DNA of 64,000 nt, taken from the NCBI GenBank assembly GCA_000237975.1, contig CP003179.1, positions 372,001 to 436,000 on the forward strand. Direction: 5' to 3'. The position numbers were made by a program, and so were the translations under genes. This stretch comes from Sulfobacillus acidophilus DSM 10332. Lineage in GTDB: Bacteria; Bacillota; Sulfobacillia; Sulfobacillales; Sulfobacillaceae. How positions within the stretch are numbered: the first letter of the stretch is position 1; the number at the start of each line of letters is the position of its first letter. Positions 15,771-39,762 of the stretch are shown in pieces. A model generated the notes under the pieces. That model saw only the letters and a program-made list of their open reading frames with translations. It was not told the origin of the DNA and did not search any database.

Positions 15771-15845
15771 GCGCCCGTGGTGAAGTGGATATCACGCAGG
15801 CCTCCGGAGCCTGAAGCAGGGGTTCGAGTCCCTTCGGGCGCACCA
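15771..15845 (+). tRNA. tRNA-Arg (anticodon CCG)
   Basis: A 75-nt cloverleaf with encoded CCA. The acceptor stem GCGCCCG pairs with CGGGCGC. The anticodon stem CAGGC/GCCTG encloses the loop CTCCGGA, whose anticodon CCG is at 15804-15806. The T arm is AGGGG-TTCGAGT-CCCTT. It reads CGG arginine codons, which are common in this genome. The 3' half from 15813 onward is part of the 59-bp direct repeat used as the insertion site of the mobile element. The gene stays complete on the left side of the insertion. Confidence 0.95.
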
Positions 15846-15871
15846 TTTTTATTTTGCGCCGAAAACCCGCA
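15813..15871 (+). repeat. attL: left copy of the 59-bp direct repeat
   Basis: Identical base for base to 44278-44336. It starts in the variable region of the tRNA, covers the T arm, acceptor 3' strand and CCA, and runs 26 bases beyond the tRNA into the first arm of the terminator hairpin (AACCCGCA...TGCGGGTT). Strand exchange must occur within it. Confidence 0.93.
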
Positions 15872-15897: not shown

Positions 15898-15923
15898 TTG
15901 CCACAAACTGGAATCCACGCGAC

Positions 15924-15950
15924 GGCGTCACCACGAGGCGTCACCACGAG
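15924..15950 (+). repeat. Tandem 13-bp repeat inside attL, candidate integrase/Xis arm sites
   Basis: GCGTCACCACGAG occurs twice head to tail (15925-15937, 15938-15950), 53 bases inside the left repeat. The same motif occurs as a tandem pair near the right end (44133-44156). This is the arrangement expected of arm-type integrase binding sites. Confidence 0.6.
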
Positions 15951-17078: not shown

Positions 17079-17140
17079 CTTAATAAAGAGAGCGTCCGGT
17101 GACCGCCGGGCGCTCTTGGCTGATGGAAAGGAGTCATCAC

Positions 17141-18421
17141 TTGACACTCAACACTATACCACAACCTCAAACAGGCCTCACGACCCCGGAAGGATACGTA
17201 GAATTTCTTCATCCTCCCGCGGAAGAAGGACGCATAGCGATAGCGCATCGCGAGCCGGACGGTAAATGGAACGAACGCAGTGTGACGCTACGCCAGGCGG
17301 TAGAGACGGTATTAGCCTGGACAGGACGAGAGGATTGTTACGTTTCGATGAATCGTTTTAAGGGTCGGCGATCTCTAGCTAATCTTTGGTCACTTCGAGC
17401 GCTATGGGTAGATCTCGATTTCCACAAATTAAAAAAATGGCAACACTGGGCGGACGAAGGAGTTTGGGGGCTCGTGGTGCCGGAATATCTTACGGATGCC
17501 CGATTGCCCCAACCTAGCATGGCAATCGCCAGCGGGCGCGGACTGTACCTGCTTTGGCTGTTCAGGACAGTGCCGGCTGCGGCACTGTCGCGATGGACCG
17601 CATGCCAACAGCAAATTTTTGAGGCATTTAAAGGACTCGGAGCGGACCGACAAGCAATGGATGCGGCTCGGGTACTGCGCGTGGTCGGTACGATAAATTC
17701 TAAGTCCGGCCAGGTGGTCCATGTGCTCGGCGGTAGCGGGTATGTGTGGGATTTTGACGCGTTGGCCGACGAGATACTGCCGTTGAGGCGAACAGAACTG
17801 CAGGACCTCCAGATTCAGCGAGCCTTAAACTTAAAAAAGAGGAAAGCGATTCCACCACAGCACCAGAGCGTACGGAGCTTGTGGGCGGCACGGTTGACCG
17901 ACATCAATACACTGATCCAGCTTAGGTACTATGACGGGCAGATACCGTCCGGAGAGCGAGATGCATACATTTTTCTGGCGGCGATCTGCATGAGTTGGAT
18001 TGCCAGCGATCCCCAGGTGCTCGAACAAGAAATCGTCCGGTTTGCCCAAGATCACACTCCGTGGTCAGATCGCGAAGTTCGGAGTCGGGTGAGTGCGGTG
18101 ATCAAACGCATGGAGATGTTCAAGCGCGGGGAAACAGTCGAATGGTTAGGTCGCCAGGTGGATCCCCGATATCGACTCAGGACGCGCACGATTATAGAGT
18201 GGCTGGGCATTACGGACCAAGAGCAACGGCACCTGACGACGCTAATCGGGAGCAAAGAAAAGCGCCGCAGACGCGGTTTTCGGATGACTCGGCAAGCATA
18301 CCTAGCGCATTCTCGAGAGCGGGACAAACCGTGGAAGCAGCTAGGAATGAGCCGAGCGACCTGGTACGCCGTTGGCAAACCGTTACCCGAGCAATACCTC
18401 GATAATCCCGATAACCAGTGA
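17141..18421 (+). CDS. Replication protein with AEP-type primase domain
   Basis: About 426 residues. The N-terminal half has the archaeo-eukaryotic primase layout: the metal-binding ALWVDLDF (D-x-D), then SGRGLYLLWLF, then the D-x-x-R-V-L-R-V-V-G-T-x-N-S-K segment, as in plasmid and element primases. The C-terminal half is unassigned. TTG 17141 is preferred because GGAAAGGAG lies seven bases upstream; ATG 17123 is an alternative. It would prime replication of the excised circle. No helicase domain is fused to it. A GC-rich hairpin precedes the gene at about 17090-17115. Confidence 0.7.
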   Translation: MTLNTIPQPQTGLTTPEGYVEFLHPPAEEGRIAIAHREPDGKWNERSVTLRQAVETVLAWTGREDCYVSMNRFKGRRSLANLWSLRALWVDLDFHKLKKWQHWADEGVWGLVVPEYLTDARLPQPSMAIASGRGLYLLWLFRTVPAAALSRWTACQQQIFEAFKGLGADRQAMDAARVLRVVGTINSKSGQVVHVLGGSGYVWDFDALADEILPLRRTELQDLQIQRALNLKKRKAIPPQHQSVRSLWAARLTDINTLIQLRYYDGQIPSGERDAYIFLAAICMSWIASDPQVLEQEIVRFAQDHTPWSDREVRSRVSAVIKRMEMFKRGETVEWLGRQVDPRYRLRTRTIIEWLGITDQEQRHLTTLIGSKEKRRRRGFRMTRQAYLAHSRERDKPWKQLGMSRATWYAVGKPLPEQYLDNPDNQ

Positions 18422-18899
18422 ATTTTTTCTGGACAGGTCCGCTCTTGTATGGTGGCGAAGCCTAGGGGAGCCTGGCCGATGGGACTCCGTTGGCCGACCG
18501 CTTGTGTGCACTCCTGACTACACGGTCATTGCCGGGCATCATCGCCTGAAGGCCGCCCTGGAACTCGGGTTGGAGACCGTCCCCGTCGAAATCCATGATG
18601 TCGATCCGGCCGAAGCGGAAGACCGCCTCGTTGCAGACAATGTGCTACGGCGGCATCTGAATCCGATGGAGCCGGCGCGGTTGATTCGTCGGCTCAAAGA
18701 ACGGTACCACGTCAAGCCAAGGCGTAAAGGTCAGGGAACATCAAATTGGGTAAATTTTACCCAATTAGCGCAGGCGATCGGTCTTGAGCGAGAGTCCGCC
18801 AAGCAACCGGACCGGCTCAATAAACCGATTCCTTCGTTGCAGGACGGGGGACATCGCATGGTGTTGCCCTGGCCGAACGAGAATAAAGTCAGAAAATAA
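18372..18899 (+). CDS. ParB/Srx-like nuclease-fold protein
   Basis: A 175-residue frame that overlaps the primase gene by 50 bases. Residues 40-95 match a ParB N-terminal domain (PLVCTPDYTVIAGHHRLKAALELGLETVPVEIHD, with the GHHR box), followed by a helical stretch resembling the ParB linker. The first 35 residues fit the family poorly and no ribosome site stands out near ATG 18372, so the start is uncertain and the N-terminus may be degraded. ParB-fold proteins on elements serve in partition or as regulators; there is no ParA partner nearby. Confidence 0.55.
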   Translation: MANRYPSNTSIIPITSEFFLDRSALVWWRSLGEPGRWDSVGRPLVCTPDYTVIAGHHRLKAALELGLETVPVEIHDVDPAEAEDRLVADNVLRRHLNPMEPARLIRRLKERYHVKPRRKGQGTSNWVNFTQLAQAIGLERESAKQPDRLNKPIPSLQDGGHRMVLPWPNENKVRK

Positions 18900-19222
18900 A
18901 AACTTTATCTCATCTGTTTCAAGTGTATCAATGATTGTCACGGAATTCAACGTTATACCGTGAAAAATAGCGAATTATATTGATATAACGCGTAAAAATG
19001 GTTTAATATGATGATGTAAGGCGAATTTTGGACATTGACATTTTAGGGGCATTAGGAGTGGCGGAGCCCGAAATCCGCCGCAACTCCGGGAACAAAGATC
19101 CTTGCGTAAAACGACTGCGGATGCAGCGTGGCAAGTAAGTCCTACCGGCCGGCCGACAGGATGTCGTCGGGTCGCCGTCGGAGGCAAGCGGAGTGTACAT
19201 ATTTTGTGTGAATGGAGGGGGT
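18900..19222 (+). other. Intergenic stretch, possible replication origin
   Basis: No gene is seen. The first 120 bases are markedly AT-rich and contain the inverted pair CGTTATA (18951-18957) / TATAACG (18984-18990). A GC-rich hairpin GGCGGA/TCCGCC at 19060-19079 includes one copy of the TGGCGGA heptamer found in the array at 22.1-22.6 kb. Position behind the primase gene makes an origin plausible, but this is inference. Confidence 0.35.
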
Positions 19223-19585
19223 ATGGCCATGACCACACGGCAACTGCAAAAATGGGCGGATGAGTTTCGCATTGCGGACAACGTGCAGCGCGAATCGATT
19301 GTCCGAAAAGCGTGGGAGAGCTACGGCGCGGACGGCATCGAGGGACTAGCATACATGCTCCGGGTGGATCCGCTCCATCTGGCGTCCGCCTTCGGACTGC
19401 GACGAAAATATATCCGCCGGGTAATCCGGCGGGAGTATCGATCCAGGTACGGCCCTCGGGAAAGAAAAAATCCTGGCTACTCGTCCGAGGCCCGCGAACT
19501 CGCCCGGTCTGCGGGAGGCGGGCAGAGTTGGGTCGATTCAGTACCGCTCAAACGCTATTGGGAGCCGCTGTCACCCACTCGGTAG
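19223..19585 (+). CDS. Unrecognised basic protein of the element
   Basis: A 120-residue, Arg-rich protein starting at ATG 19223 after GGAGGGGGT. It is mostly helical by composition. Residues 30-70 (YGADGIEGLAYMLRVDPLHLASAFGLRRKYIRRVIRREY) resemble a helix-turn-helix, so DNA binding is possible. The C-terminus is rich in Arg, Ser and Gly. No family is recognised. A clear terminator follows, so it ends a transcript. Confidence 0.5.
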   Translation: MAMTTRQLQKWADEFRIADNVQRESIVRKAWESYGADGIEGLAYMLRVDPLHLASAFGLRRKYIRRVIRREYRSRYGPRERKNPGYSSEARELARSAGGGQSWVDSVPLKRYWEPLSPTR

Positions 19586-20641: not shown

Positions 20642-22123
20642 ATGGACAAAGTCACCCAATCCGAATTGCCGGCCCGGTTGGAGCGGTTATATCGGTCCGG
20701 TCTGTCGATCGTCTTTGTCATCGCACGGGATCCGAGCGCCGTCATTCGAGCGGTGTTCGCGAGCCAAATCGAAACCCGGTGGACTTGGGGCCCCGGCCGA
20801 CCGTTTTCTGCTCGGGGCCCGTTGCCGCCGGGGTTTAACGGGTTATCGCAGTGGCAGGATTTGCCACACTTGGCTTCCCTACCGTGGGCCGGGCCGACTA
20901 TCGGGGTAATAACCGGGTTGCCTGGCGACGCCCCGGACGCGGGGTATTTTGCCGATTTGCTTGATGCAACATCGGAAGAGATCCGCGGACGTCAAGCCCC
21001 CTTACTCCTTGTGTTAGTCCTCTCCGGCGGTTTGCCGGAAAATTATCGTCACATCGGGCCGGTATTGCGGGTCATGCCGCCGGATCAGGCGGAACGAGCG
21101 GACATCGTACGAGGGTTGGCCGAAAAAAACCAGATCGCGGCGTCAGAGTCCGCAATCCAGGAGTCCGCGCAGGCACTATCCGGCCTGGAGGCTGGAGAAA
21201 TTCGGCAGATCGTCCTCAGTCAGTTAGCGGGTGCCGGGACCTTAGATCCCGAAGCCGCCGGGGCCGAGAAAGCCCGTCGGCTCGCGTCTGGTGGACTCCT
21301 AGAACCGATCAGGGTGCGTCCCGTCGCCGTCGGCGGGCTATCCGAGCTAAAACGGTGGCTCCAAACCCGCGCCCAAGCGGCCCAACGGGGATTGCCGATG
21401 CCCAAAGGGGTGGTTCTCGTCGGTCCCCCGGGTACCGGGAAATCGTTGAGCGCCCAGTTGGTCGCCGGCACATTTGAAGTGCCCATGGTTCGTTTGGATT
21501 TCGGCAGGCTCATGGGATCCTTCGTCGGCGAGAGCGAAAAAAACCTGCGAACGGCCCTCGCCCAAGCCGAAGCAATGTATCCGTCCATTCTTTGGGTCGA
21601 TGAAATTGAAAAGGGTTTGTCCGGGAGCGGGTCGAACGGTAGCGAAATCACGCGGCGACTGCTTCAGTATCTACTCGGATGGATGCAAGAGCAAACCGGG
21701 GTGTTCGTTTTCGCGACGGCGAATGACGTGTCCGCGTTGCCGCCGGAACTCCTCAGAAAAGGTCGATTCGACGAGCTGTTTTATGTGGATCTCCCTTCAC
21801 GTAGCGAGCGGGAGGAAATCTGGGTTGCGTCATTGGACCGGTGGCATATCGATCCGTCCTCGGTCGACGTGCCGGCTTTGGTGTCCGCTAGTGAGGGGTA
21901 CACCGGAGCCGAAATCGCGGCTGTGGTGTCAGACGCCGTGTACGAGTCTGAAGGGTCGCTCACCACCGCTACCCTGTTGTCCGCCGTCAAGTCCACTCGC
22001 CCGCTGTCCAACGTTTTTCCTGAGCAAATCCAATCAATCCGCGCCTGGGGTGCGGCCCACGCCCGTCCTGCAGGCGGGTCACCGGAGCCGGTTGGCGCTT
22101 CGGCAACCCGTTTCCGGAGCTGA
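20642..22123 (+). CDS. AAA+ ATPase related to Ycf46
   Basis: A 493-residue protein. Residues 1-220 hold a degenerate P-loop-like N-terminal domain, and residues 230-450 a classical AAA module: Walker A GPPGTGKS, Walker B ILWVDEIEKG, sensor 1 FATANDVSALPPELLRKGRFDE with the arginine finger, and the GYTGAEI sensor-2 helix. The order and the truncated N-terminal ATPase domain are those of Ycf46, a family of uncertain function found in cyanobacteria and plastids. FtsH-like protease residues are absent. In this element it follows a membrane protein and precedes the repeat array, so it may remodel a replication or relaxosome complex; that role is inference. Confidence 0.75.
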   Translation: MDKVTQSELPARLERLYRSGLSIVFVIARDPSAVIRAVFASQIETRWTWGPGRPFSARGPLPPGFNGLSQWQDLPHLASLPWAGPTIGVITGLPGDAPDAGYFADLLDATSEEIRGRQAPLLLVLVLSGGLPENYRHIGPVLRVMPPDQAERADIVRGLAEKNQIAASESAIQESAQALSGLEAGEIRQIVLSQLAGAGTLDPEAAGAEKARRLASGGLLEPIRVRPVAVGGLSELKRWLQTRAQAAQRGLPMPKGVVLVGPPGTGKSLSAQLVAGTFEVPMVRLDFGRLMGSFVGESEKNLRTALAQAEAMYPSILWVDEIEKGLSGSGSNGSEITRRLLQYLLGWMQEQTGVFVFATANDVSALPPELLRKGRFDELFYVDLPSRSEREEIWVASLDRWHIDPSSVDVPALVSASEGYTGAEIAAVVSDAVYESEGSLTTATLLSAVKSTRPLSNVFPEQIQSIRAWGAAHARPAGGSPEPVGASATRFRS

Positions 22124-22607
22124 TGGCGGATAAAACGGCGGAACCCGCCAGAACGCGTCCGGCTTGGGTTAACTGCTCGTTTTGGTGGTTCATTGGCGGA
22201 TATTCTGGCGGAAGAAATAGCGGAAACGCATCATAAACGGTGGGTTTTAGTCGCAAATCCGCCAAGCCTTCCGCCAAGGACGCCGCGAAGAGGCCCACAA
22301 AATCGCCCGAACCCCAGTCGAATGAATGGGTTCGGGGTTCCGCCAGAACTTCCGCCAAAGGTGCCGCGAACGGGTTTTTCGATAACGACCTCGGAATCGG
22401 TTCCGATTTCCGGGGGTCAAAAACGGGTCGCAAGGCTTGCGGGACGGGACTTCTAGCCTCCGGAATTGTCGTCGGAAATGGCGTCGATTCCAGTGGCGTC
22501 ATCGGGATTTTGGGGCGGCGGCGGCCCCCAATCGCCGGTTTGCCCCCAAAATTTCCGATAAACTTCTCGATTCCGATGGTAATTCCGGCGGTTTTTCCGA
22601 TGGCGGA
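22124..22607. repeat. Array of paired TCCGCCA heptamers, candidate oriT or oriV
   Basis: A 0.5-kb stretch without a convincing gene. It has eight exact copies of TGGCGGA/TCCGCCA. Three pairs have 12-bp centre spacing: 22194 and 22206 (TGGCGGA orientation), 22258 and 22270, and 22339 and 22351 (TCCGCCA orientation). Singles are at 22124 and 22601. Between the second and third pairs, CCCGAACCC (22306-22314) and GGGTTCGGG (22328-22336) form a perfect 9-bp stem with a 13-base loop. Repeated AATTCCGATGG-like tracts follow at 22568-22670. Paired iterons around a hairpin, upstream of a RHH gene and relaxase, are what an origin of transfer or replication looks like. Confidence 0.6.
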
Positions 22608-22700
22608 ACGTCAAGCAGGACAAGGTGCTGAGGCAGTTTCGGCGGGGTGAATTCCGATGGCGATTCCGATGCCGAAATCGAAAAAGGAGGGGATGACGCA

Positions 22701-23087
22701 TTGGGCAAGCTGGTCGGGGGTCTCGCGAGGGGGATATGGTGGGTTGGTCAGCGAGCGTGGGGCCATCCGGTGTTGCGATTGGTGCTCCTCGGGCTGGTGT
22801 CCGTTTGGCTACTGCCGGTGTGGGTTCATGCCGCTGGGGAGCGCCAGTCGTGGATTGTTGTCTCGCTGGTGGAAATCTGGTTTTTGTTGTCGGCTGATGC
22901 CATCCACCACCTCTGGCCGCCGGTCGGACAGCGGCTCTGGCCGGGGTACGTTCTTTTGGGGTGGCCGTGGTTGAGTACGATCGTCGGGTCCCGGTGGGTC
23001 GCTGCCGGGCTGGTTGCATTCATTGTCGCAGGGATATTGTTAGTGAAACGTTTCACAAACTCGAAAGGGGTTGGGTCGAATGCATGA
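22701..23087 (+). CDS. Membrane protein, unrecognised
   Basis: About 128 residues read from TTG 22701, downstream of AAAAAGGAGG; a longer version from GTG 22647 would add a polar, repeat-derived stretch. Three or four hydrophobic helices are visible (VLRLVLLGLVSVWLLPVWV, IVVSLVEIWFLLSADAI, YVLLGWPWLSTIVG, WVAAGLVAFIVAGILLV). The basic C-terminus follows the last helix. Located between the putative origin array and the RHH-relaxase genes, it may belong to the transfer apparatus. No family is recognised. Confidence 0.6.
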   Translation: MGKLVGGLARGIWWVGQRAWGHPVLRLVLLGLVSVWLLPVWVHAAGERQSWIVVSLVEIWFLLSADAIHHLWPPVGQRLWPGYVLLGWPWLSTIVGSRWVAAGLVAFIVAGILLVKRFTNSKGVGSNA

Positions 23088-23328: not shown

Positions 23329-23489
23329 GGCCTTCGGCCCGTGTAGTCTTGCGCACATTACGCACCTGCGGTGGGCCACCCGGCGGCCCGTCGACCACCC
23401 GCGAGCCGTTGAGCCGCCGGGACTTGCGCCGTGCTACACCGTGTGCTACGGCAATCGCGGGAACGTCAATATAAATGTAGGTTTTGGTT

Positions 23490-23530
23490 GTGCCACGGTC
23501 AGTTCTTATCGCCGTGGCACACCGTTTTTG
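23490..23530 (+). terminator. Hairpin before the relaxosome genes
   Basis: GTGCCACGG (23490-23498) pairs with CCGTGGCAC (23512-23520) and is followed by ACCGTTTTT. It could end the upstream transcript or act as an attenuator 30 bases before the RHH gene. Confidence 0.6.
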
Positions 23531-23552
23531 CGGATCCGAGGGGAGGAAATCG

Positions 23553-23867
23553 ATGGAAAGTGTCCACATTCGGCTGCCTGAGCTTCTGATTCGGCAAATC
23601 GATCGGGTAGCTCAGGAACGGAGCAAAGAACGGAGTGTGGTTGTCCGGGAGCTGCTGGCGACCGCTCTCGATCTGGAGGGGATCACCCACACGGTAGACC
23701 GAGCCGTCCGGGAATCGCTAGCCCGGCAGGATTGGTCACCGACCCGAAAACAGATAGCCGAGCTAGGGGCGAGTTTGACATATGCCGTGCTGTTGGGATT
23801 GGGCCGACCGTCCGACCAGATTGCGACGGTCGTGCGACAGGTTCGGTCGGCTTTGGAGGAGGGGTAA
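23553..23867 (+). CDS. Ribbon-helix-helix accessory protein (relaxosome type)
   Basis: A 104-residue protein whose first 45 residues form a MetJ/Arc (CopG-like) ribbon-helix-helix: strand MESVHIRLPELLIRQI, then the helices RQIDRVAQERSKERSVVVRELLATALDLEG. The C-terminal half is helical. Small RHH proteins next to relaxases (TraY, TrwA, MobC-like) bind oriT and regulate the transfer operon. GGGGAGGAAATCG precedes the ATG. It lies two bases before the next gene and 280 bases before the relaxase, so it is the likely oriT-binding partner. Confidence 0.75.
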   Translation: MESVHIRLPELLIRQIDRVAQERSKERSVVVRELLATALDLEGITHTVDRAVRESLARQDWSPTRKQIAELGASLTYAVLLGLGRPSDQIATVVRQVRSALEEG

Positions 23868-24147: not shown

Positions 24148-26841
24148 ATGATGACCATATCGCCAATCACGAACGCGGGATCGGCCAGCAAGTATTTCGA
24201 GGGGGTGTCGGCTACCGACCGGGAGATTGATCCGTCAACGGGCGCGGTCCGCTATTTTGCCGAATCGGGTGAGCCGCCGGGCCGATGGAGAGGACATGCG
24301 GCGTCCTTGGGTCGGCCGGGTGGCGATATCGTCAAAGCGGGCGAACTCGAACGGTTGCTGAACGGCCAGCATCCAGAAAGTGGGGAATCACTGGTCCAGA
24401 CGCAGGCGGGTAAGTCGCACCGGCCGGGGTGGGACCTCACCTTTTCGAGCCCCAAATCCGTATCCGCGGTGTGGGCGGCAGCCGACCCGGAACTGCGAGC
24501 CGCTATCGAGAGAGCCCACGAGGCGGCGGTGCAAGCGGCGTTTGATTATTTGCAAGCGAATGCGGCCTACACCCGCCGCGGAAAAGGCGGGACGGAACTA
24601 GAACGGGTCCAGCTGATCGGCATCGAGTATCAGCACAGCACCAGCCGGGCGCAAGATCCGCACCTCCATTCGCACTTGTTGATCGCCAACGTTGCTCAAC
24701 GTTCCGACGGCACCTGGGGTACCTTGGAATCCCGACCGATGTTTCAGCATCGCATGGCGGCGGGAAGTTTGTACCAATCGGAACTTGCGGCGCGCCTTCG
24801 GGACATGGGGTTCGAGATCGTCAAAGGCCGGGGCGGAACGTTTGAGATCGACGGGGTACCCGGCGACCTCAAAAAGCTCTGGTCCGGGCGGCACGAGCAG
24901 ATGGAGGCTAACGGCGCCACCGGGCAATCGCGGGAAGCCGAGCGTGCATTCTTGGAGGGTCGGCCTGAAAAAGGGAAAATCCATCGTCCGTCCTTGTTTG
25001 CTAAGTGGGGGGCGGAAGCCGCCGCCCATGGGTTGGATCCCGTCAAAATCCGGACCGAACTGATGCGGGGACGGATCCAGTCGGCCGAACCGCTGGAATG
25101 GGCGCAAATCCGTGAACGGCTTACGGCCGACCGGAGTACGTTTCGGCGCGAGGACGTCATTCGGCAAGTCGCCACCGCGTCGTACGGCCAATATTCCGCG
25201 CAACAATTGCAGGCGCTTGTCGATGCCGCGTTGACGCAATCGGAAAGCGGCTTCGTCCGGTTGGGATCGGACGACCGAGGGGAGTTTTACACCACGGTCG
25301 AACATCTAGAACGTGAGAAACGGATGCTGTCGGCGATGGGCCGGCTGGCGGCGTCAACGACCCATGCGGCCGACGTTCGGGCTGTGGAACGAGCCATCAG
25401 CAAGGACCGTGGGGGCTGGAAGCTATCCGACGAACAAGCCCAAGCCGTACGGGCGCTGGCTGGTGGTAGCCGGATTGCTACCACCAGGGGGGCCGCCGGG
25501 ACCGGGAAAACCACGTCCATGATCGCGCTCAAAGAAGCGTATGAGTCGTCGGGGTACAAACTCCTCGGGGCAACGATTAGCAATCAAGCCGCGCAGGTGT
25601 TGGAAAAAGAATCGGGGATTACCTCGATGAGCGTCGCCAAGCTGTTGTACGAGCTAGCGTCGGCAGAAGAAAAATCCGAGACGATGGCCCGGATGCAATG
25701 GGCCGAGCAAGAGGAAGCGAAAGCCCGTCAAGCGGCCGACCGCGGTGAAGAGTACGAACCGAAACCGTTTCCTGGGATGGGGGTAGCCGACGCCGTGTTT
25801 GAGCGGGTGTTTCCGGCCAAAGCCAAAAAAGATGCCATTACGCTGGACGAGCGAACCATTGTCATTGTTGACGAGGCCGGGATGGTGGATACGCCGCAGC
25901 TCGCCCAATTGATCGAACACGTGGAGCGGAGCGGGGCAAAGATTGTCCTAATCGGCGATGAGCGACAGATCCAAGCTGTGGGGGCCGGGGGCGGATTCCA
26001 AGCCGCCCGGCAGATTACGCGACAGGTCGGAGGGGATGCAGAATTGACGGAGGTGAGGCGCCAAAAAGTGGCATGGCAACGAGAAGCCGCAGAACAAATC
26101 TCGTTGGGTCAAGCCCGCGAGGCCTTACAGATGTACGAGCGGGAGGGTCGCTTGCATACAGCCGACGGCCCCGAAGAAGCGGCGCGAGAGCTCGTGCAGG
26201 ATTGGATACGAGATCGGCTGCAAGACAAGGCGGCTAGTCAACTCATCATTGCGAGTTCGCACGCCCAAGGGGCCGTACTCAACCACCTAGCGCAGGAGAC
26301 TTTACGGTCTCACGGGATGCTCGGTCCGTTGGTCGCCGAGGGGCTCAGCACCGCCCGGCAAGGGAAGCACGATTTGTACGTCGGTGACGAAATTCGCTTC
26401 ATCAAAAACGCCAAAAAACAAGGCTGGATCAACGGGGATCGCGGCACGGTCATCGGCATGGGGCCAGCCGGGCAGATTCGGGTGCGGTTGGAGGAGTCCG
26501 GTCAAGTCGTGGAGTTCGATCCGCGTCAGTACCGGCATTGGCAGCTGGCGTACGCCAGCACGGCGCACAAAAGTCAGGGGTCCACGGTTGACCGGGCGTA
26601 CTATCTATTGTCGAGCGGCGACCACCGGGAGCTCGGGTACGTCGCTGCCAGCCGTCACAAACAGGATCTTCGGCTTTATGTCGATCAGAGCGTCTATGAG
26701 GCGAAGTCTGACAGGGACCAGCTCATCCAAGAGATCGCGCGGTCGTTGGCTAAGTCCGACCGAAAGGAAATCGCGCTGTCGTTGGCGGCCAAAGCCGGGT
26801 CAGATCGAGTCCAAGACCACGACACCGGCCACAGTCGATGA
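24148..26841 (+). CDS. MOBF-type relaxase-helicase (TrwC/TraI family)
   Basis: An 897-residue conjugative relaxase. The N-terminal domain (1-270) has the candidate catalytic tyrosine Tyr16 (SASKYFEG) and the histidine cluster H172-L-H174-S-H176 (QDPHLHSHLLIAN) that binds the metal. It should nick oriT and stay linked to the 5' end. The second half is a RecD/TraI-like helicase with Walker A GAAGTGKT (Lys454), VIVDEAGMVD and the C-terminal AYASTAHKSQGSTVDRAY. GGAGGTGATC precedes the ATG. The coupling-protein gene follows 31 bases later. The reading frame is intact and full length. Confidence 0.92.
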   Translation: MMTISPITNAGSASKYFEGVSATDREIDPSTGAVRYFAESGEPPGRWRGHAASLGRPGGDIVKAGELERLLNGQHPESGESLVQTQAGKSHRPGWDLTFSSPKSVSAVWAAADPELRAAIERAHEAAVQAAFDYLQANAAYTRRGKGGTELERVQLIGIEYQHSTSRAQDPHLHSHLLIANVAQRSDGTWGTLESRPMFQHRMAAGSLYQSELAARLRDMGFEIVKGRGGTFEIDGVPGDLKKLWSGRHEQMEANGATGQSREAERAFLEGRPEKGKIHRPSLFAKWGAEAAAHGLDPVKIRTELMRGRIQSAEPLEWAQIRERLTADRSTFRREDVIRQVATASYGQYSAQQLQALVDAALTQSESGFVRLGSDDRGEFYTTVEHLEREKRMLSAMGRLAASTTHAADVRAVERAISKDRGGWKLSDEQAQAVRALAGGSRIATTRGAAGTGKTTSMIALKEAYESSGYKLLGATISNQAAQVLEKESGITSMSVAKLLYELASAEEKSETMARMQWAEQEEAKARQAADRGEEYEPKPFPGMGVADAVFERVFPAKAKKDAITLDERTIVIVDEAGMVDTPQLAQLIEHVERSGAKIVLIGDERQIQAVGAGGGFQAARQITRQVGGDAELTEVRRQKVAWQREAAEQISLGQAREALQMYEREGRLHTADGPEEAARELVQDWIRDRLQDKAASQLIIASSHAQGAVLNHLAQETLRSHGMLGPLVAEGLSTARQGKHDLYVGDEIRFIKNAKKQGWINGDRGTVIGMGPAGQIRVRLEESGQVVEFDPRQYRHWQLAYASTAHKSQGSTVDRAYYLLSSGDHRELGYVAASRHKQDLRLYVDQSVYEAKSDRDQLIQEIARSLAKSDRKEIALSLAAKAGSDRVQDHDTGHSR

Positions 26842-26872: not shown

Positions 26873-27157
26873 ATGGCGCAAAGTGTCTCACATGGATCAG
26901 CCCGTCTCCTGCATTTTCCGTCGGGATCGGGCCTCGACTGGGGGCGGCGGTTACGCCGCACCCCGCATTGGGTGTTAGGTAGCAGTTGGTCGCAGCCGGT
27001 TGGTCTGTCCACCTGGCCGACCGGGCGAAACTGGCTCATCTTGGGGCCGCCTCGGAGCGGCAAGGGCGCGAGTTTCTTTGTTCCGTCGCTCTTGTCGGCC
27101 CCCGAGCAACCGGAGCCGCGGCCGTCGGTCATTGTGACGGATCCCAAAGGAGAGCTC
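26873..27157 (+). CDS. VirD4/TraG coupling protein, exon 1 (residues 1-95)
   Basis: First exon of the type IV coupling protein, which pumps the relaxase-DNA complex towards the mating channel. It contains Walker A GPPRSGKGAS (Lys64) and ends in the family's conserved VTDPKGEL. The reading frame is then broken by the group II intron. Joining GAGCTC at 27152-27157 to TATCGC at 29860 gives DPKGEL-YRYLAISR in frame, the expected family sequence. GGAGGTGCCGAA precedes the ATG. No long N-terminal membrane anchor is visible, unlike many VirD4 proteins. Without splicing only a 103-residue stub would be made. Confidence 0.88.
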
Positions 27158-27870
27158 GTGCGCGTTGTTCCTACACAGCGCTAAGGAGTAATCCTTAACT
27201 AAAAGTAGGCAGTGGAACCCCACTGAACTGTATCTCTGAACTGGCATCTGCAACGATGCCCTCGTGAGAGGATGCTCACGACGAAGCTCTCAAGGTGCGA
27301 CAGGCAAGATAGGGATGTGTGACAGCGATTCTTGTCTGAAGCTCGCTAACCAGCGCCATAAAGTCCCACCGGGATACTAAAGCGCCAGAGGCCATAAAAT
27401 TGCCATGCCGACTCACCAGAAACCTGCGTTCTAACAGCTCGTAACCTTTGCTAGCCAGCAATGGCTAGACCCTTCGGGGCTGAAAGACGGTGCAACTTTG
27501 GAGTTCGAGAAGCACTGGGGCACACCCGTAGCGGGTGCTCGCACGGTCTGCACCCATCATCCTAAAGACCAAGCTCTTTCACGGGCCAAAGCAGGCGGCT
27601 ACCGCAATATGCAAGGCAAGGAGATACGGTACAACGGAACCCGACGAGGTGAGCGGACATCACCGCAATGACCCGATAATCCGCAGGAAATGGCGGGTTT
27701 GAAACGTTGGGGGCAGCAGCCCGTAGTAGTCCGCGGCGGGGAAAGCCCGCCACACGGCGAAGGGGCATAGTCTAGGACATTGGACATTGACAGAAACAGC
27801 ACGACCGGGAAGCCGATGCGCAAACCTGACTAATCCATGTTCACTCAACCTACCGAAAGGGGGTGGTGCC

Positions 27871-29766
27871 ATGGCTCACGAATCGGTCAACCTCGTGACA
27901 TCAGAAGCCGCATTTCGACGCCTACAAGACCAACTGTATGCGACGACCCGGCAAGCTTTGGAACGGCATGACTTGCCGCGCTTCAAAGGCTTGCTGGAGA
28001 TTGCCCAAAGTGAGGCCGTGATTCTCACGGCCATCCATAAAATCAAAAGCAATCACGGACAGCATACAGCGGGTAGTGATGGGCAAGTCATGTCGGAGAT
28101 TCTTCAGCAACAGTATCCTGACATCATCCAACGGGTTCAGTCAGCCCTTCACCACTACGAACCGCAGCTTCTGCGGCGCGTATGGATTCCCAAACCGGGA
28201 AAGGCAGAAAAGCGCCCATTAGGTATACCCGCGATGATCGATCGCATTGTGCAAGAAATCCTGAGGAGCATCCTAGAACCCATCATGGAAGCTCAATTCT
28301 TTGAGCACTCCTACGGATTTCGCCCGATGCGCGACGCGCATCAAGCCTTGGCGCGCACGACGAACCTGGTGCACGACACCGGTTATCACTGGATTGTGGA
28401 AGGCGACATTAAAGGGTGTTTTGACAACATCCCGCACGGCAAGCTCCTCAAGCAACTGTGGCATATGGGGATACGAGATCGGCGCATTTTGATGATTATC
28501 AAACAGATGCTCAAGGCCGGAATCCTTCATGAAGCGCCACACGTTGACCAAGGCACCCCACAGGGCGGAATTCTCTCGCCCTTGCTCGCCAATGTCTACC
28601 TTCACAAGCTTGACCAGTGGGTAACCCGCGAATGGGAGGCCAAGCGCACGCGATTTCCATACAAGAAGCGGAGAATCCGCCTCGAAGCGCTTCAAGAGCG
28701 TTCGCGCCTCAAACCGGCATATTTCGTGCGATATGCCGATGACTGGATACTGATTACGGACTGCAAAGCTCATGCCGTGGCCTGGAAACAGCGCATCGCC
28801 CAATACTTGGACCAAAATCTGAGCCTGACCCTGAGTCAGGACAAAACCAAGATTACCAACGTGCGCCGTCAATCCATTCACTTTCTGGGCTTCCAGTTCA
28901 AGCTAAAATCCGGCAAGAGTCGGACCGGGTACGTCACCGTCACTCGGCCCGACGCCAAACGACTCCGAGACAAGGTCGTAGACATCCGACGAGAATTACG
29001 CCAGTTACGGCGGTATCAGGGCAAGGCTTTGTGCCATGCCATCAACGTCGTCAACAGCAAAATCGTCGGACTGAACAATTACTACCAAGTGGCCTCGATG
29101 GTAAATCCGGACTGCCGCCGCTATGCGGACTCGTTAGCCCGGACCGCGCACCGCGCATTGGTCCGGGCACTGGGAAACCGCAAAACCGCACGCAATCTCT
29201 GGACTCCGGCCCATACCGTGCATAATCTGACGGAGCGCCATGCGGACTTTACCAAAGCCATTCCGACCGTGGAATACGAGGGCTTGCGGTTGGGCGTCAC
29301 CAACCTCGCCTTTGTGCGGTGGACGGAACCCAAGCTCAAGCGCCCCGCCGAATGTCCCTACACGGTCAAAGGACGTAATCTCTACGACACACGCACGGGC
29401 CACAAGTTACAACAGGCGCGGGATGACCCCGGCATGAACCTGACCTTGTCAGCCATGATTGCCTTTGGGAAAACCCATCCTCGATACAACTTCGAGTACC
29501 TGTTGAATCGGGCCTACGCGTACAATCGCGACCAACGGATATGCCGTATTTGTGCACAGGTCGTCTTACCGGCCCACCTGCACATGCACCATATTGACCC
29601 CTCCAAACCACTGGACGAGGTCAACAAGGTGGCCAATCTGGCAACCATGCACCGCAATTGTCATCAACGAGTTCATGACGGCCAGCCTCATTCGGAACTG
29701 GGCGCGAAACCGTGGCGGAAAATGCGTCACTACAGGCAATTGCTGAATCTGTCAACGACAAACTAG
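27871..29766 (+). CDS. ltrA: Group II intron maturase / reverse transcriptase with HNH domain
   Basis: A 631-residue intron-encoded protein that promotes splicing and target-primed reverse transcription. RT motifs are complete, including the catalytic YADD box (VRYADDWILIT), GTPQGGILSPLLANVYL and FLGFQFKLKSGKSR. The maturase X region spans roughly residues 370-470. The C-terminal endonuclease is the CRIC...HMHHIDP...NLATMHRNCHQRVH HNH motif. ATG 27871 was chosen for its GAAAGGGGGTGG site; longer reading into the ribozyme region is unlikely. No frameshift or stop is seen, so the intron should be mobile. Confidence 0.93.
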   Translation: MAHESVNLVTSEAAFRRLQDQLYATTRQALERHDLPRFKGLLEIAQSEAVILTAIHKIKSNHGQHTAGSDGQVMSEILQQQYPDIIQRVQSALHHYEPQLLRRVWIPKPGKAEKRPLGIPAMIDRIVQEILRSILEPIMEAQFFEHSYGFRPMRDAHQALARTTNLVHDTGYHWIVEGDIKGCFDNIPHGKLLKQLWHMGIRDRRILMIIKQMLKAGILHEAPHVDQGTPQGGILSPLLANVYLHKLDQWVTREWEAKRTRFPYKKRRIRLEALQERSRLKPAYFVRYADDWILITDCKAHAVAWKQRIAQYLDQNLSLTLSQDKTKITNVRRQSIHFLGFQFKLKSGKSRTGYVTVTRPDAKRLRDKVVDIRRELRQLRRYQGKALCHAINVVNSKIVGLNNYYQVASMVNPDCRRYADSLARTAHRALVRALGNRKTARNLWTPAHTVHNLTERHADFTKAIPTVEYEGLRLGVTNLAFVRWTEPKLKRPAECPYTVKGRNLYDTRTGHKLQQARDDPGMNLTLSAMIAFGKTHPRYNFEYLLNRAYAYNRDQRICRICAQVVLPAHLHMHHIDPSKPLDEVNKVANLATMHRNCHQRVHDGQPHSELGAKPWRKMRHYRQLLNLSTTN

Positions 29767-29859: not shown

Positions 29860-31218
29860 TATCGCTATCTGGCGATTAGTCGCAGTCGGCTAGAGGTGGC
29901 GGGCTATAAAATCCACGTGATTGCGTTCGATCGGCCGGACCTTTCCGATGGGTTCGGCCCGTTACCATGGCTTCAGTCGGATCAGTTCGGTGGCGTGGAC
30001 TATGGTGCCGCACAACATTTGTCCCTAACCGTGGTACCTGAAAACCCGAACGAGAAGGACCCTTTTTGGAGCAACGCGGCCCGGACGATTGTGGCGTCGG
30101 CGGCGGTCCTCGCGTATCGGGTTGGCGGCACGTTCGCTGACGCGTTGGGCTTGGCATATCAGTTGGCTCTCGAAGCCGACAGCGAATTACCCCAACGGAT
30201 TGCGGCGCTCAGAACGGTCGATCCTTGGGCCGCGGCCCAGTTGCAAGGCCTGGCACGCGCATTGGCGGGCGACCGTAAGCTAGCCGGCAACATCGGGGCG
30301 GATCTGATTGCCAGGTTTTCGAGCTGGACCACGCCAGCCATGTTGAGCATCTTTTCGCGACCCGGATTTGCCTTGCCGGACGTATTGGACGGGCCTGAGC
30401 CGCACGCGGTGTTTCTATTAGCCGCGTCCCACCACAGCGCCCAGCAGGCGGTCGTCATTGCGTCGGCGATTGCGTCCGCTCATCGGATCCAACGCCGGGC
30501 GAATCGCCTATCCCGTCCGCTGTGGTTCTTATTGGACGAATTTGGAAATGTTGGTCATTTGCCAAACATTCTGGACGCCTTGACGACGTTGCCGGGGGCG
30601 GGGGTCTCCGTTGCCATCGGTTTGCAGTCCGTTGCGCAAATGGAAGCCGTGTATGGCGAATCAGCGGCCACCGTGGCGCTGGAGGCGCTGCACGGGTTCA
30701 CGGCGTTTCCGGGATTGGGATACGATTCGGCCCAATGGGTGTCGGATCGGCTCGGGCAGTCCACGGTCACTACCTGGTCCCGGAGCACCGCCGCCGATAA
30801 CACGCGTCAATGGACGCGGGGCGAGCACCAACGGCCGGTGCTCATGTCCGATGAGGTCTCGCGAATCCGCATCGGGTCGGCCGTTGTCCAGCGTTCGGGG
30901 TATCCGGGGCTCATGATCCAAACGCGGCCGTACTACGCGAATCGCCGGTATGCCGCGGAAGCGGCCGTCGCCAATCCGTCCCACCCGCAAATTGCCGCTC
31001 AGCTTAACCAGATGCGCCATCCGGTCATCGAACCGCCGGGGGCCTGGGATTTGGGCGAAGCGTTGCTGGAGCGGTTGTTACCCGAAGAGGAACCGGCCGA
31101 AACGCCGACGCCACCAGAGTTGGCAACGCCACCGGAGCCACCGGCCGCTCAGTCGATGCCGGATGAGGTAGACGCCGCCGATCTCAAATTTTTGCTGAAA
31201 GGGGGTGAGTCCGAATGA
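29860..31218 (+). CDS. VirD4/TraG coupling protein, exon 2 (residues 96-547)
   Basis: Second exon, 452 residues; the joined protein is 547 residues, within the family range. The Walker B acidic pair D321-E322 lies in LWFLLDEFGNVGHLPNI. The all-alpha and ring-contact region follows (DALTTLPGAGVSVAIGLQSVAQMEAVYG, the conserved Q-S region). The C-terminus is Pro/Glu-rich and acidic, ending DLKFLLKGGESE, a possible relaxosome contact. The stop overlaps the next start (ATGA). The protein should form the hexameric inner-membrane motor, but no mating-channel genes accompany it. Confidence 0.88.
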   Translation, partial: YRYLAISRSRLEVAGYKIHVIAFDRPDLSDGFGPLPWLQSDQFGGVDYGAAQHLSLTVVPENPNEKDPFWSNAARTIVASAAVLAYRVGGTFADALGLAYQLALEADSELPQRIAALRTVDPWAAAQLQGLARALAGDRKLAGNIGADLIARFSSWTTPAMLSIFSRPGFALPDVLDGPEPHAVFLLAASHHSAQQAVVIASAIASAHRIQRRANRLSRPLWFLLDEFGNVGHLPNILDALTTLPGAGVSVAIGLQSVAQMEAVYGESAATVALEALHGFTAFPGLGYDSAQWVSDRLGQSTVTTWSRSTAADNTRQWTRGEHQRPVLMSDEVSRIRIGSAVVQRSGYPGLMIQTRPYYANRRYAAEAAVANPSHPQIAAQLNQMRHPVIEPPGAWDLGEALLERLLPEEEPAETPTPPELATPPEPPAAQSMPDEVDAADLKFLLKGGESE

Positions 31219-35607: not shown

Positions 35608-37233
35608 GTGCCGACGTTGCAGTTTAAAGGCAAATCGTTTGTTCAAAACCACCATTTGACGGTGAAGTATCACGAATTAATTCCCGTGCCGGAGAAGAGC
35701 CTAACCAATGAGGTCAGTTTGAATGATAATCTCATCATTCATGGAGACAACCTGGTGGCTTTAAAGGCGTTGTTGCCGATATATGCGGGCCAGGTCAAGT
35801 GCATTTATATTGATCCGCCGTATAACACCGGGGAAGAAAAGTGGGTGTATAACGATAACGTCAATTCACCGATGATGCGGGATTGGCTTGGGAAGGTGGT
35901 GGATAAGGAGGATCTTACGCGGCATGACAAATGGTTGTGTATGATGATGCCGAGGTTAAAACTTCTTCACATGTTATTAAGTGAGGAGGGAGCGATATTC
36001 GTATCAATTGATGATAATGAGGTTCACCATCTTCGTCCATTACTGGACGATATATTTGGTGAGAATAATTTTATTGCGTCATTGGTTTGGCAGAAAAAGG
36101 TTTCGCCATCTAATGATGCTAAATGGTTTAGCAGCGATCATGAATATGTTGTTGTATATGCGAAAAAAAAGGACATTTGGCGTCCCAATCGTTTAGAAAG
36201 AACTGCTGCCCAACTGGATTTTTACCAAAACCCAGACAACGATCCTCGAGGTCCATGGAATTCCGTGGCATATACGTGTAACAAATCGAAAGAAGAGCGT
36301 CCTAATCTATTCTATCCAATAAGAAACCCAAATACGGGTCAGGTCATTTATCCCAAAGAAACAGCGGTATGGGCTTATTCCGAGACAGTCTATCGAAAAC
36401 ATGTTGCTGAGAATCGATTGTATTGGGGAAAAGACGGCACTTCATCGATGCCTAGATTAAAGCGATTTTTGTCGGAAGTAGGAAATGTTGTCCCGCGAAG
36501 CATTTTGCCTTATGCAGAGGTAGGACACACCCAAGAGGCCACGAGTAGATATAGGGAAATATTCCCAAATGGAGGATTTTCATATCCTAAGCCGCCGCGG
36601 TTAATCGAACGCATCTTGTCGATCGCAACTAATCCCGACGAGGAAGATATTGTGTTGGATTCCTTTGCAGGTTCTGGCACGACAGCTCATGCTGTTCTTG
36701 AAGCCAACTCCAAGGATGGGGGAAATCGTCGATTTATCTTGATAGAGATGGAAAACTATGCCGACACCATTACCGCCGAACGGGTGCGGCGGGTGATTCA
36801 AGGCGTTCCTGCGGCGAAAGACGCGGCTCTTCGGAACGGCTTAGGGGGAACCTTTTCGTATTTTGAACTCGGCCAAGCGATTGATCCCGAGGGCTTGCTG
36901 TCTGGCGACGCCTTGCCCCCCTATGCCGAACTGGCCCGATATGTCTTCTACACGGCAACGGGCGAACCTTTTCAGGCTGACCGCCTAGTTCAACGCCGAT
37001 GGTTTATCGGGGAAAGTCGGGAATATGAGGTCTACCTGCTCTATCGACCGGATCTGGAGGCGTTGAAGTCGTTGGCATTGACCTTGGAGTTCGCACAAGC
37101 GTTGGGACGGCCGACCACACCCAAAAAACGGTTGGTGTTTGCGCCAGCGAATTTTTTGCCCGAGGCGTATTTGGAGGAGTATCGCATCGAGTATGCACAA
37201 CTTCCTTACGACATTTACCGAAATCGGCGGTGA
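35608..37233 (+). CDS. mod: Type III restriction-modification methyltransferase (Mod)
   Basis: A 541-residue N6-adenine DNA methyltransferase of the beta class: the catalytic D69-PPYNTG comes before the AdoMet motif F353-AGSGTT. N-terminal FKGKSFVQNHHL and IIHGDNLVALKALLPIYAGQVK are typical of Mod subunits. The central segment, roughly residues 115-385, is distinctly AT-richer than both flanks and holds the target-recognition domain. Read from GTG 35608 after AAGGAGCG. Mod alone methylates; with Res it forms the ATP-dependent type III nuclease. The res gene starts six bases downstream. Confidence 0.92.
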   Translation: MPTLQFKGKSFVQNHHLTVKYHELIPVPEKSLTNEVSLNDNLIIHGDNLVALKALLPIYAGQVKCIYIDPPYNTGEEKWVYNDNVNSPMMRDWLGKVVDKEDLTRHDKWLCMMMPRLKLLHMLLSEEGAIFVSIDDNEVHHLRPLLDDIFGENNFIASLVWQKKVSPSNDAKWFSSDHEYVVVYAKKKDIWRPNRLERTAAQLDFYQNPDNDPRGPWNSVAYTCNKSKEERPNLFYPIRNPNTGQVIYPKETAVWAYSETVYRKHVAENRLYWGKDGTSSMPRLKRFLSEVGNVVPRSILPYAEVGHTQEATSRYREIFPNGGFSYPKPPRLIERILSIATNPDEEDIVLDSFAGSGTTAHAVLEANSKDGGNRRFILIEMENYADTITAERVRRVIQGVPAAKDAALRNGLGGTFSYFELGQAIDPEGLLSGDALPPYAELARYVFYTATGEPFQADRLVQRRWFIGESREYEVYLLYRPDLEALKSLALTLEFAQALGRPTTPKKRLVFAPANFLPEAYLEEYRIEYAQLPYDIYRNRR

Positions 37234-37239
37234 TGGCGG

Positions 37240-39762
37240 ATGATGCCACTGAAACATTACCAGCAGCGGGCCTTGACGGTGATTGATCAGTATTTGCAGG
37301 CCTTGAGGGACTGGCGGGACAAGGTGTCGGCGTTACCCGAAGACGTGCGGGGCGCGGTGGATTTTCCGGCGAAAGCCTGGGAAGCGGTGGGGGGCCGGCA
37401 ACCGTATCACGCCAAACAGACGGGGGCTGGAGAGCCGTTGCCCCATTTTTGTCTTAAGGTACCGACCGGCGGGGGCAAAACCTATTTGGCCGTTCAGACC
37501 ATTGATCGGATTCAGCAACACTACCTGCATCGGCTCACCGGCCTCGTGTTGTGGATTGTGCCGACCCAGCAAATTTATCGGCAAACCCTGGCCCATTTAC
37601 GGGATCGCCACCACCCCTACCGGCAGTTTTTGGACGTGGCGACGGGCGGACGGGTGATGGTCGTCGAAAAAACCGACCGGTTCACGCCGGATGATGTGGC
37701 CACGCGGCTGGTGATCGTGCTACTCATGTTGCCGTCGGCCAACCGGCGGGATAAAGAAACTTTGAAGCTCTTTCAAGATGCGAGCGGGTTTGAAGCCTTC
37801 TTTCCGCCCGAGGGGGATTACCCGGCTCACGAGCAGTGGCTGCAACGCTGGCCCAATCTGGATTATTTCGGCGACGAGGCGTCGTGGTTCGGCCGGCAGG
37901 TGAAAACGTCGTTAGGCAACGTGCTCCGGATTTTGTCGCCCGTCATTATTCTGGACGAAGGCCAAAAGGCCTACAGTGCCTCGGCCCAAGACACGATTCG
38001 CGGCTTTAACCCCGCGATCATTGTCGAATTGTCGGCGACTCCACCTCGGGGCAGCAACATTCTGGTGGATATTCGGGGCCGGGATCTGGACCAAGAAGAG
38101 ATGATTAAACTGGATTTGCATGTCACCAATCGGGCGAGTCCGCGATGGCAGGATACCCTCGCCGACAGTGTCGCCTGGCGGGAAGCGTTGGAAGAGAAAG
38201 CCGTCCAGTACGAAGCCCGCACCGGGGTCTATATTCGCCCGATTACCCTGATTCAAGTCGAACGGACCGGCAAAGACCAAGTGGACGCGGGGTATATTCA
38301 TGCGGAACATGTCAAACAGGCTTTAATGGATGTTCACGGGGTGCCCGAAGACCACATCGCCATTAAGTCCAGTGAGCAAGACGATATTGAAGGCATTGAC
38401 CTTCTGGCGAAGGATTGTCCCATTCGGTACATCATTACAAAGCAGGCGTTGCAAGAGGGATGGGATTGCCCCTTCGCATACGTCTTAACGGTGCTGACCA
38501 ACCCGTCCTCGCAAACGGCGCTCACCCAATTAGTCGGTCGCATTTTGCGCCAGCCCTATGCCAAGAAAACCGGGGTGCCCGCCCTGGATGAAAGCTACGT
38601 GTTTTGTTTCCAACGCCAAGCCTCGGAACTGGCCCAGTCGATTAAAGACGGGCTCGAAGACGAAGGGCTCGGGGATCTGGCCCATAGCGTCGCGCTATCC
38701 GATCGGGACAAGCCCTCCGACGGTCCACCGCGGACCGTGGGCATTCGGGAGCGTTTTCGGCGCTTTGAAGGCAAAGTGTATCTCCCGCGGTTTGTGATCA
38801 CCGAGGCGGGCCGGGAAGAGGACCTGCAATACGAGATGGACCTGGTGCGGAGGATTCGGTGGGAGGAACTGCGGCTGGATCGTCTGGATACGCTCGTCTT
38901 AGGCATCCCGTCATTGGTGGATTGGGAAGTGGCTTATGGCTATGGGGAAACCGCGGAGACGGTGGTGGAGCGTGAACGCCGGGAGTATGAGGCCGCCCAT
39001 CGCGCCATTAACGTGCTCTTTCTCACGCGCCGGTTAGAGGCTTTGGTGCCGAATCCGTGGGTCGCCCGCGACATTGTGAATCGGGCTATCGACCGGTTAC
39101 GAACCCGGTACGACGAGGCCGTGATTGCGGCGAACCAGGTGTTCCTCGCGCAGGAACTGGAAAAGCTCGTGGAGGCGGAGCGCGACCGCCTGACCGAGGC
39201 TATTTTTCGCGAGCTCATTCACCAGGGCAAATTGCGCCTCGTGTTGATGACCGGTCGTGCGTATCGCGTGCCGAGTCGGATCACCGTTCCCCGCACCGTC
39301 CAACAACCTTTGCTGCATTCCACCGGTCGCACGGTACAGATGAGTTTGTTCGATGATCCGGTGCCCGCCGACTGGTTTAATCCCGCCTTGGAAGCGCCGG
39401 TGGCCTTGTGTCTGGACTCGCAGAAAAAGTTGCTCTTTTGGTATCGCAACTTAGTGGGCCGGGATTACTTTTCGGTGCAAGGATGGCGCAAAAACCGGAT
39501 CTGGCCTGATTTCATTGCCGCCAAGCGTTCGGAGACCCATCCGGAGGACTACGACACGATTTACGTGCTCGAAACCAAAGGCGACCAATTGGCAGGTAAC
39601 CTTGATACGCATTATAAGCAGGAGGTGTTTGCTTTGTGCAACGAACTGGGCAAAAAGATCACGTGGTCGGACCTGGGCTTGGAATTTCCTAACCGGCAGG
39701 TGCAGTTTCAAGTGGTGATGGCCGATGAGTGGGAGCGAGTAATTCAGGAATTATTTGCGTGA
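37240..39762 (+). CDS. res: Type III restriction enzyme helicase-nuclease (Res)
   Basis: An 840-residue subunit. The SF2 helicase core has Walker A PTGGGKT (Lys80), motif II D239-E-G-Q in VIILDEGQKAY, motif III VELSATPP and motif VI TQLVGRILRQP. The C-terminal nuclease carries the PD-(D/E)XK residues Asp757 (WPDFIAA), Glu778 and Lys780 (VLETKGDQL). Together with Mod it scans DNA from unmethylated recognition sites and cleaves nearby when two complexes meet. The frame is intact and of normal length, so the system is probably active. Confidence 0.9.
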   Translation: MMPLKHYQQRALTVIDQYLQALRDWRDKVSALPEDVRGAVDFPAKAWEAVGGRQPYHAKQTGAGEPLPHFCLKVPTGGGKTYLAVQTIDRIQQHYLHRLTGLVLWIVPTQQIYRQTLAHLRDRHHPYRQFLDVATGGRVMVVEKTDRFTPDDVATRLVIVLLMLPSANRRDKETLKLFQDASGFEAFFPPEGDYPAHEQWLQRWPNLDYFGDEASWFGRQVKTSLGNVLRILSPVIILDEGQKAYSASAQDTIRGFNPAIIVELSATPPRGSNILVDIRGRDLDQEEMIKLDLHVTNRASPRWQDTLADSVAWREALEEKAVQYEARTGVYIRPITLIQVERTGKDQVDAGYIHAEHVKQALMDVHGVPEDHIAIKSSEQDDIEGIDLLAKDCPIRYIITKQALQEGWDCPFAYVLTVLTNPSSQTALTQLVGRILRQPYAKKTGVPALDESYVFCFQRQASELAQSIKDGLEDEGLGDLAHSVALSDRDKPSDGPPRTVGIRERFRRFEGKVYLPRFVITEAGREEDLQYEMDLVRRIRWEELRLDRLDTLVLGIPSLVDWEVAYGYGETAETVVERERREYEAAHRAINVLFLTRRLEALVPNPWVARDIVNRAIDRLRTRYDEAVIAANQVFLAQELEKLVEAERDRLTEAIFRELIHQGKLRLVLMTGRAYRVPSRITVPRTVQQPLLHSTGRTVQMSLFDDPVPADWFNPALEAPVALCLDSQKKLLFWYRNLVGRDYFSVQGWRKNRIWPDFIAAKRSETHPEDYDTIYVLETKGDQLAGNLDTHYKQEVFALCNELGKKITWSDLGLEFPNRQVQFQVVMADEWERVIQELFA

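Follow-up and report, generated by a model that had tools for sequence, protein, structure and literature searches.

The gap of about 560 bases that separates an AAA+ ATPase gene from the next gene on an integrated mobilizable element of Sulfobacillus acidophilus DSM 10332 is filled by nineteen 12-bp units in seven groups, A to G, which share the core TCCG and alternate in orientation. We give about an even chance to the reading that this array acts in cis as a multi-operator, or as a site of nucleoprotein assembly, with an oligomeric DNA-binding protein of the element as its ligand.

The host element

The 28.5-kb element lies within the 64,000-nucleotide stretch analysed here (the window, C1:372001-436000; positions are those of the window unless given with C1 or C2), and genome-wide counts cover both contigs, 3,557,831 bases in total, of which the first contig makes up 3,472,898. 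It has the att repeats at a tRNA gene, the integrase, the relaxase and the coupling protein of an integrative mobilizable element. A 59-bp direct repeat has its first copy (attL, 15813-15871) over the 3' end of a tRNA-Arg(CCG) gene (15771-15845) and its second (attR, 44278-44336) just behind the gene of a tyrosine integrase (42983-44191, PF00589). Also encoded are a plasmid-type, primase-like replication protein (Rep, 17099-18421), a ParB-like protein (18372-18899), an XRE regulator, a MobF/TrwC relaxase (24148-26841, plus strand; 237 bits with the MobF profile against a cut-off of 100), a coupling protein (T4CP) matching PF02534, a resolvase and a type III restriction system. We term the element mobilizable and not self-transmissible because the search for a VirB4-type ATPase (PF19044) gave two partial matches in the genome and none within the element.

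Other features of the element were seen alongside. The coupling-protein gene is split (27032-27175 and 29884-30975) between positions 88 and 89 of the PF02534 profile, so that its function would depend on splicing; the insertion holds a reverse-transcriptase/maturase-like open reading frame (ORF, 27787-29766) and, judged by eye, is a group II intron. Repeats of GGCGTCACCACGAG near both element ends (15922-15950 and 44132-44156) are possibly arm-type sites of the integrase, and the type III restriction-modification pair (35608-39762) is cargo. A small protein encoded at 19193-19585 has no family or fold match and a counterpart of 38-40% identity in a related element in the genome G109; its model is a confident helical bundle over about the first 75 residues. 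Elsewhere in the genome, identical copies of TTCCGACCAAAATTCCG at C1:3037663, C1:3067979 and C2:68493, on chromosome and plasmid, are perhaps copies of an insertion sequence.

Two levels of spacing in a non-coding array

A preliminary description of the locus had drawn attention to eight exact TCCGCCA heptamers in less than 500 bp, and all were recovered, at 22124(-), 22194(-), 22206(-), 22258(+), 22270(+), 22339(+), 22351(+) and 22601(-). The three exact TCCGCCA-N5-TCCGCCA pairs that it reported were likewise present (22194(-), 22258(+) and 22339(+), the first inverted relative to the other two), as was the perfect 9-bp stem between pairs two and three, formed by CCCGAACCC (22306-22314) and GGGTTCGGG (22328-22336) around a 13-nt loop (22306-22336, no strand; inverted-arm scan and DNA fold). 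Among 200 sequences simulated by a first-order Markov model with the composition of the window, the densest 500-bp cluster held 4 heptamers compared to the 8 observed, and one exact pair occurred in the whole set compared to three at the array. The stem is not exceptional, since 9-bp arms with short loops have 25 start positions across the window; the DNA fold z-score is -2.25. Confinement of the heptamer to this locus, which would have counted in favour of the original reading, was not seen: the window holds 34 copies against 15.6 expected. The 12-bp spacing behaves differently, with three of the six exact heptamer pairs at this distance in the whole genome lying at the array, together with 6 of 44 genomic TTCCG-N7-TTCCG sites, which cluster nowhere else in the genome. 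The local feature is thus the 12-bp spacing and not the heptamer itself.

The array is larger than first noted, its constant part being TCCG in exact 12-bp steps. With this core, which was picked after the data had been seen, 10 of the 24 same-strand TCCG/CGGA pairs at 12 bp in the 64-kb window fall in 22095-22710 (616 bp), where other lags from 4 to 43 give at most 3 TCCG pairs. Across all 4-mers and lags of 8-40, no signal in the window exceeds that of TCCG at 12 bp (10, against 4 for the best unrelated one). The same scan gave top values of 3-5 in six second-order Markov runs, and 1000 first-order runs of the region reached a maximum of 3 TCCG pairs over lags 8-40, all null models being Markov simulations, not exact shuffles, of first order apart from those six runs.

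Group A (22108-22143, minus strand) consists of three TCCG units at 22115, 22127 and 22139, the first overlapping the AAA+ stop codon, and group B (22190-22225, minus), 82 bp from A, of three more at 22197, 22209 and 22221. On the plus strand, group C (22257-22292) has TCCG units at 22258 and 22270 and a degenerate GCCG unit at 22282, and group D (22338-22373), 81 bp from C and 81% identical to it over 32 nt, repeats this with TCCG at 22339 and 22351 and the second of the array's two GCCG units at 22363. A single unit E' (22385-22396, minus; unit 22392) is followed after 69 bp (81 minus 12) by group E (22454-22477, minus; 22461 and 22473). Group F (22571-22606, plus) comprises three TTCCG units at 22572, 22584 and 22596 in the variant TTCCGATGG, and group G (22652-22675, plus; 22653 and 22665), 81 bp from F, ends just before AAAAAGGAGGGG. 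Groups F and G had been overlooked because they carry TTCCGATGG and its relatives and not TTCCGCCA. The array is known in one copy only.

Same-strand group starts are separated by 82 bp (A-B), 81 bp (C-D) and 81 bp (F-G), and under random ordered placement of groups three spacings within 1 bp have a chance of 0.001 when counted strictly or 0.012 when one-unit slips are allowed, in a test devised after the data were seen. Because bases outside the units agree little at lag 81 (0.305 against a background of ~0.255), a recent tandem duplication is not evident. The 81-82 bp spacing with weakly conserved sequence between groups appears to fit a spatial constraint better than such an event, and an old duplication could also have given rise to it. 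With the strand alternating between modules, AB and CD form one imperfect inverted repeat and E'E and FG another: AB scored 56.5 against the reverse complement of CD (null maximum 52.5), and E'E scored 55 against that of FG (null maximum 45.5), with 300 Markov simulations each.

The array stretch is non-coding, as had been proposed: codon-position GC is flat in the plus-strand ORF at 22240-22650 (0.59/0.58/0.58) and patterned in the neighbouring genes (~0.65/0.48/0.68). It occupies the whole gap from the AAA+ stop codon (22123) to just short of AAAAAGGAGGGG, which looks like the Shine-Dalgarno site of the downstream gene; the likely start of that gene is TTG at 22701 and not GTG at 22647. No sigma-70-like promoter was found within the array, which weighs against the preferred reading below. 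The location given originally, between an AAA+ gene and the genes of a ribbon-helix-helix (RHH) protein and a relaxase, is also correct; the relaxase is of the MobF type, and the locus lies on a mobile element. Directly upstream is the AAA+ ATPase gene (20642-22123, plus strand, PF00004), of the classical Cdc48/FtsH type and not FtsK-like; downstream, a gene for a hydrophobic protein (22701-23087, plus) that has no family match opens onto the gene run leading to the RHH, relaxase and coupling proteins.

Relatives of the AAA+ protein occupy other gene contexts. None of the nine loci found in viral contigs showed a counterpart of the array, a related relaxase or a related RHH protein; at some of them, AAAA/AATT and other runs had high scores. 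A peptide-pattern search of the viral contigs with the hydrophobic protein of the 22647 ORF gave no close relatives. One AAA+ relative (44% identity; genome G116, locus L085, 10938-17399) shares, judged by eye, an operon-like series of genes with MoxR-like and VWA-like members, and no relaxase match was found in the 20 kb examined around it.

A separate candidate origin of transfer

The preliminary description saw in the array a strong candidate for an origin of transfer or replication, and named as contrary evidence related elements that keep the relaxase and lack the array. The class was covered by 154 genomes; apart from the source, three of them have relaxases that are clearly related (E below 1e-90), with identities of 50% (G109), 49% (G055) and 43% (G041); in G109 the RHH protein is 36-38% identical, and the RHH and TrwC genes follow in the same order as in the source element. 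In the DNA examined, all three keep the relaxase without a comparable array (the G041 contig reaching only 1.6 kb upstream), and none holds a counterpart in which the spacing could be conserved. Comparison of the array with the G109 upstream region scored 119, the null mean being 114.

A stretch of about 200 bp directly before the RHH gene (23345-23549, plus strand) resembles its G109 counterpart. The alignment of the whole stretch scored 64.5, compared to a null mean of 38.8, with 3 of 1000 Markov simulations reaching the score; by eye, blocks at 23351-23373 (GCGCACATTACGCACCTGCGGTG-like), 23423-23431 (CTTGCGCCG) and 23478-23486 (TAGGTTTTG) occur in the same order in G109, while the optimal alignment pairs the middle block differently. 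A hairpin (23490-23498 / 23512-23520) follows within the stretch. Conservation of this stretch rests on G109 as the one relative, and the scores for the upstream regions of G055 and G041 did not rise above simulations (reached by 53 and 193 of 200, respectively). Words of 11-12 nucleotides common to the upstream regions were near chance level, and GATCCGA, found near the RHH start in both the source and G109 elements, occurs at chance frequency and was set aside.

That the array is itself the origin of transfer is very doubtful. It does lie upstream of the RHH and MobF relaxase genes, and CGCAAGGCTTGC at 22429 recurs in the G109 upstream region, where chance alone would give ~1.5 shared 11-mers. 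However, because the related relaxase loci lack the array in the DNA examined and the RHH gene is immediately preceded by a separate candidate that G109 shares, the array is probably not the origin of transfer, and 23345-23549 appears to be the better candidate. What stands of the original interpretation is a non-random, non-coding and probably cis-acting site on a mobile element, whereas the prediction of an origin of transfer has moved to a different, testable 200-bp stretch.

Possible working of the array and competing roles

An oligomeric-protein site is proposed because exact 12-bp units come in twos and threes, the groups keep a constant wider spacing, and orientation alternates; that a protein binds, that it does so cooperatively and what this brings about we infer. 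An oligomeric protein encoded by the element would bind each TCCG-centred 12-bp unit, adjacent subunits would occupy two or three neighbouring units within a group, and the groups 81 bp apart, together with the inverted modules, could be gathered into one nucleoprotein complex. The array would then fill the regulatory stretch that separates the AAA+ gene from the operon-like series extending to the origin-of-transfer candidate and the RHH, relaxase and coupling proteins, and would not be the nick region. Its likely output would be control of the mobilization genes, by repression or copy sensing, and perhaps it may have an accessory relaxosome or maintenance role.

As a tentative first guess, the ligand could be the RHH protein, a CopG-like protein of 104 aa (profile matches with E 5e-5) encoded at 23553-23867 (plus strand), 0.9 kb downstream of the array. 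In its AlphaFold model (pLDDT 74), helices 10-22 and 27-38 are in RHH positions and the C-terminal part is helical, with the N-terminal strand not assigned; fold searches with this model and that of the 19193 protein, each moderately confident, had no hit at E 0.001. The array offers the several short cores at fixed spacing expected of an RHH multi-operator, with an RHH gene on the same element. RHH relaxosome factors are described as binding several sites, often cooperatively (PMC8136818), and RHH proteins as acting both at the origin of transfer and as autoregulators (PMC4175270, PMC8136818); MobC of RA3, an RHH protein, autoregulates its own operon and stimulates transfer (PMC4175270). Against this ligand, the RHH proteins of the relatives are retained without the array. 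The predicted DNA-contacting strand residues, read by eye, differ among the source, G109 and G055 proteins (S-H-R, Q-T-R and I-K-R, respectively), which could allow different sites in the relatives but would equally fit another ligand; the alternatives are the ParB-like protein, the XRE regulator and the 19193 protein. Peptide-pattern searches gave no close relatives of the RHH protein in the viral contigs, and none of the relaxase in the genome or viral contigs.

A maintenance role is taken as a serious alternative because G109 carries an actin cassette in the slot of the array. There, the region upstream of the origin-of-transfer candidate encodes a segregation-type actin, matching ALP_N and MreB-like_C above cut-off, and several small proteins, one weakly RHH-like. 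A centromere-like stability site, with an RHH or ParB-like adaptor on the array served by the AAA+ ATPase and membrane partners, is nevertheless unlikely. The element encodes a ParB-like protein, the array has the direct repeats of a parC-type site, and centromeres of actin-type systems are described as direct-repeat arrays bound by the RHH protein ParR (PMC9426499); but neither a ParA nor a ParM gene could be recognised next to the array, where the neighbours are the hydrophobic protein and an AAA+ protein (PF00004) of the classical Cdc48/FtsH type. G055 shows a similar order of small-protein, AAA+ and membrane genes, but with only ~78 bp between the last two and with an AAA+ protein that does not align with that of the source at E 1e-3. 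Decidedly less probable is an undescribed maintenance or tethering system that would replace the G109 actin cassette, in which the Cdc48/FtsH-type AAA+ and small membrane proteins would act on a 12-bp/81-bp scaffold bound by an RHH- or ParB-like protein.

Iterons with a stem-loop are a common layout of vegetative replication origins (oriV). Use of the repeats and hairpin in this way by the primase-like Rep after excision would suit the plasmid-type replication gene at 17099-18421, but we consider it improbable, as the array is 3.7 kb from rep, no marked change of GC skew occurs at it, and two plasmids with a related Rep show no such non-coding array in the parts scanned (27.1 of 27.8 kb in L103 and 14.9 of 31.1 kb in L104). 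A structured RNA or leader formed by the inverted modules would agree with a folding energy z-score of -3.0 over 22124-22650, but such folds come automatically from inverted DNA repeats, no Rfam match was found at E 1, and exact 12-bp steps in both orientations suit protein binding better, making this reading highly improbable. Hardly any weight is left for chance or for repeats of a decayed coding sequence: as 12 is divisible by three, the repeats could encode a 4-residue motif, but they lie on both strands of a stretch with flat codon-position GC, and the 12-bp TCCG count exceeds all simulations.

The array has likenesses in several known systems. In Streptomyces conjugative plasmids, the short clt/TRS repeats are linked to transfer and are bound by the FtsK-type TraB; the array is similar in being short repeats linked to transfer, but the AAA+ protein beside it is not FtsK-like and a MobF relaxase is present. 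With iteron-type replication origins it shares tandem short repeats, a stem-loop and a plasmid Rep on the same element, but differs in its distance from rep, its alternating orientation and its groups of 2-3 units. The relaxosome RHH sites of F (TraM sbm), pWBG749 (SmpO) and R388 (TrwA) are also short cores in multiple sites with the RHH gene beside the relaxase gene, and TraM is described as binding four GANTC motifs cooperatively (PMC8136818). Those sites are within or near the nick region, whereas the array is ~0.7-1.2 kb from the origin-of-transfer candidate, separated from it by two reading frames, and has many more units. The parC centromeres bound by the RHH protein ParR are likewise arrays of short direct repeats, with described units of 10, 11, 17 or 20 bp (PMC9426499); parC adjoins parM, whereas the array has no adjacent actin or ParA gene, 12-bp units and alternating orientation.

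Should a nucleoprotein complex form on the array, this would reveal a means by which MobF elements in thermoacidophilic Bacillota govern their mobilization or persistence, on which little was found described. The 12-bp and 81-bp geometry with alternating orientation leads to a structural prediction, namely neighbouring subunits within a group and synapsis between groups. A literature search found no description of the array site, and the genome paper mentions the plasmid and a strain comparison and contains no word beginning with conjugat (PMC3558970). The exact C/D consensus had 0 matches in the viral and genome contigs (the window's own record possibly being left out), and blastn against plasmids gave one 28-bp match (E 0.7). 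As a general type, such binding arrays are known; the two-level geometry appears unmatched in this narrow search of sequence collections. A class-wide pattern built on the 12-bp register matched at least 126 of 154 genomes and was rejected as too weak to be specific; in the source genome it had 9 matches compared to 2 for the reversed control, and an off-register (11-bp) control pattern had 0.
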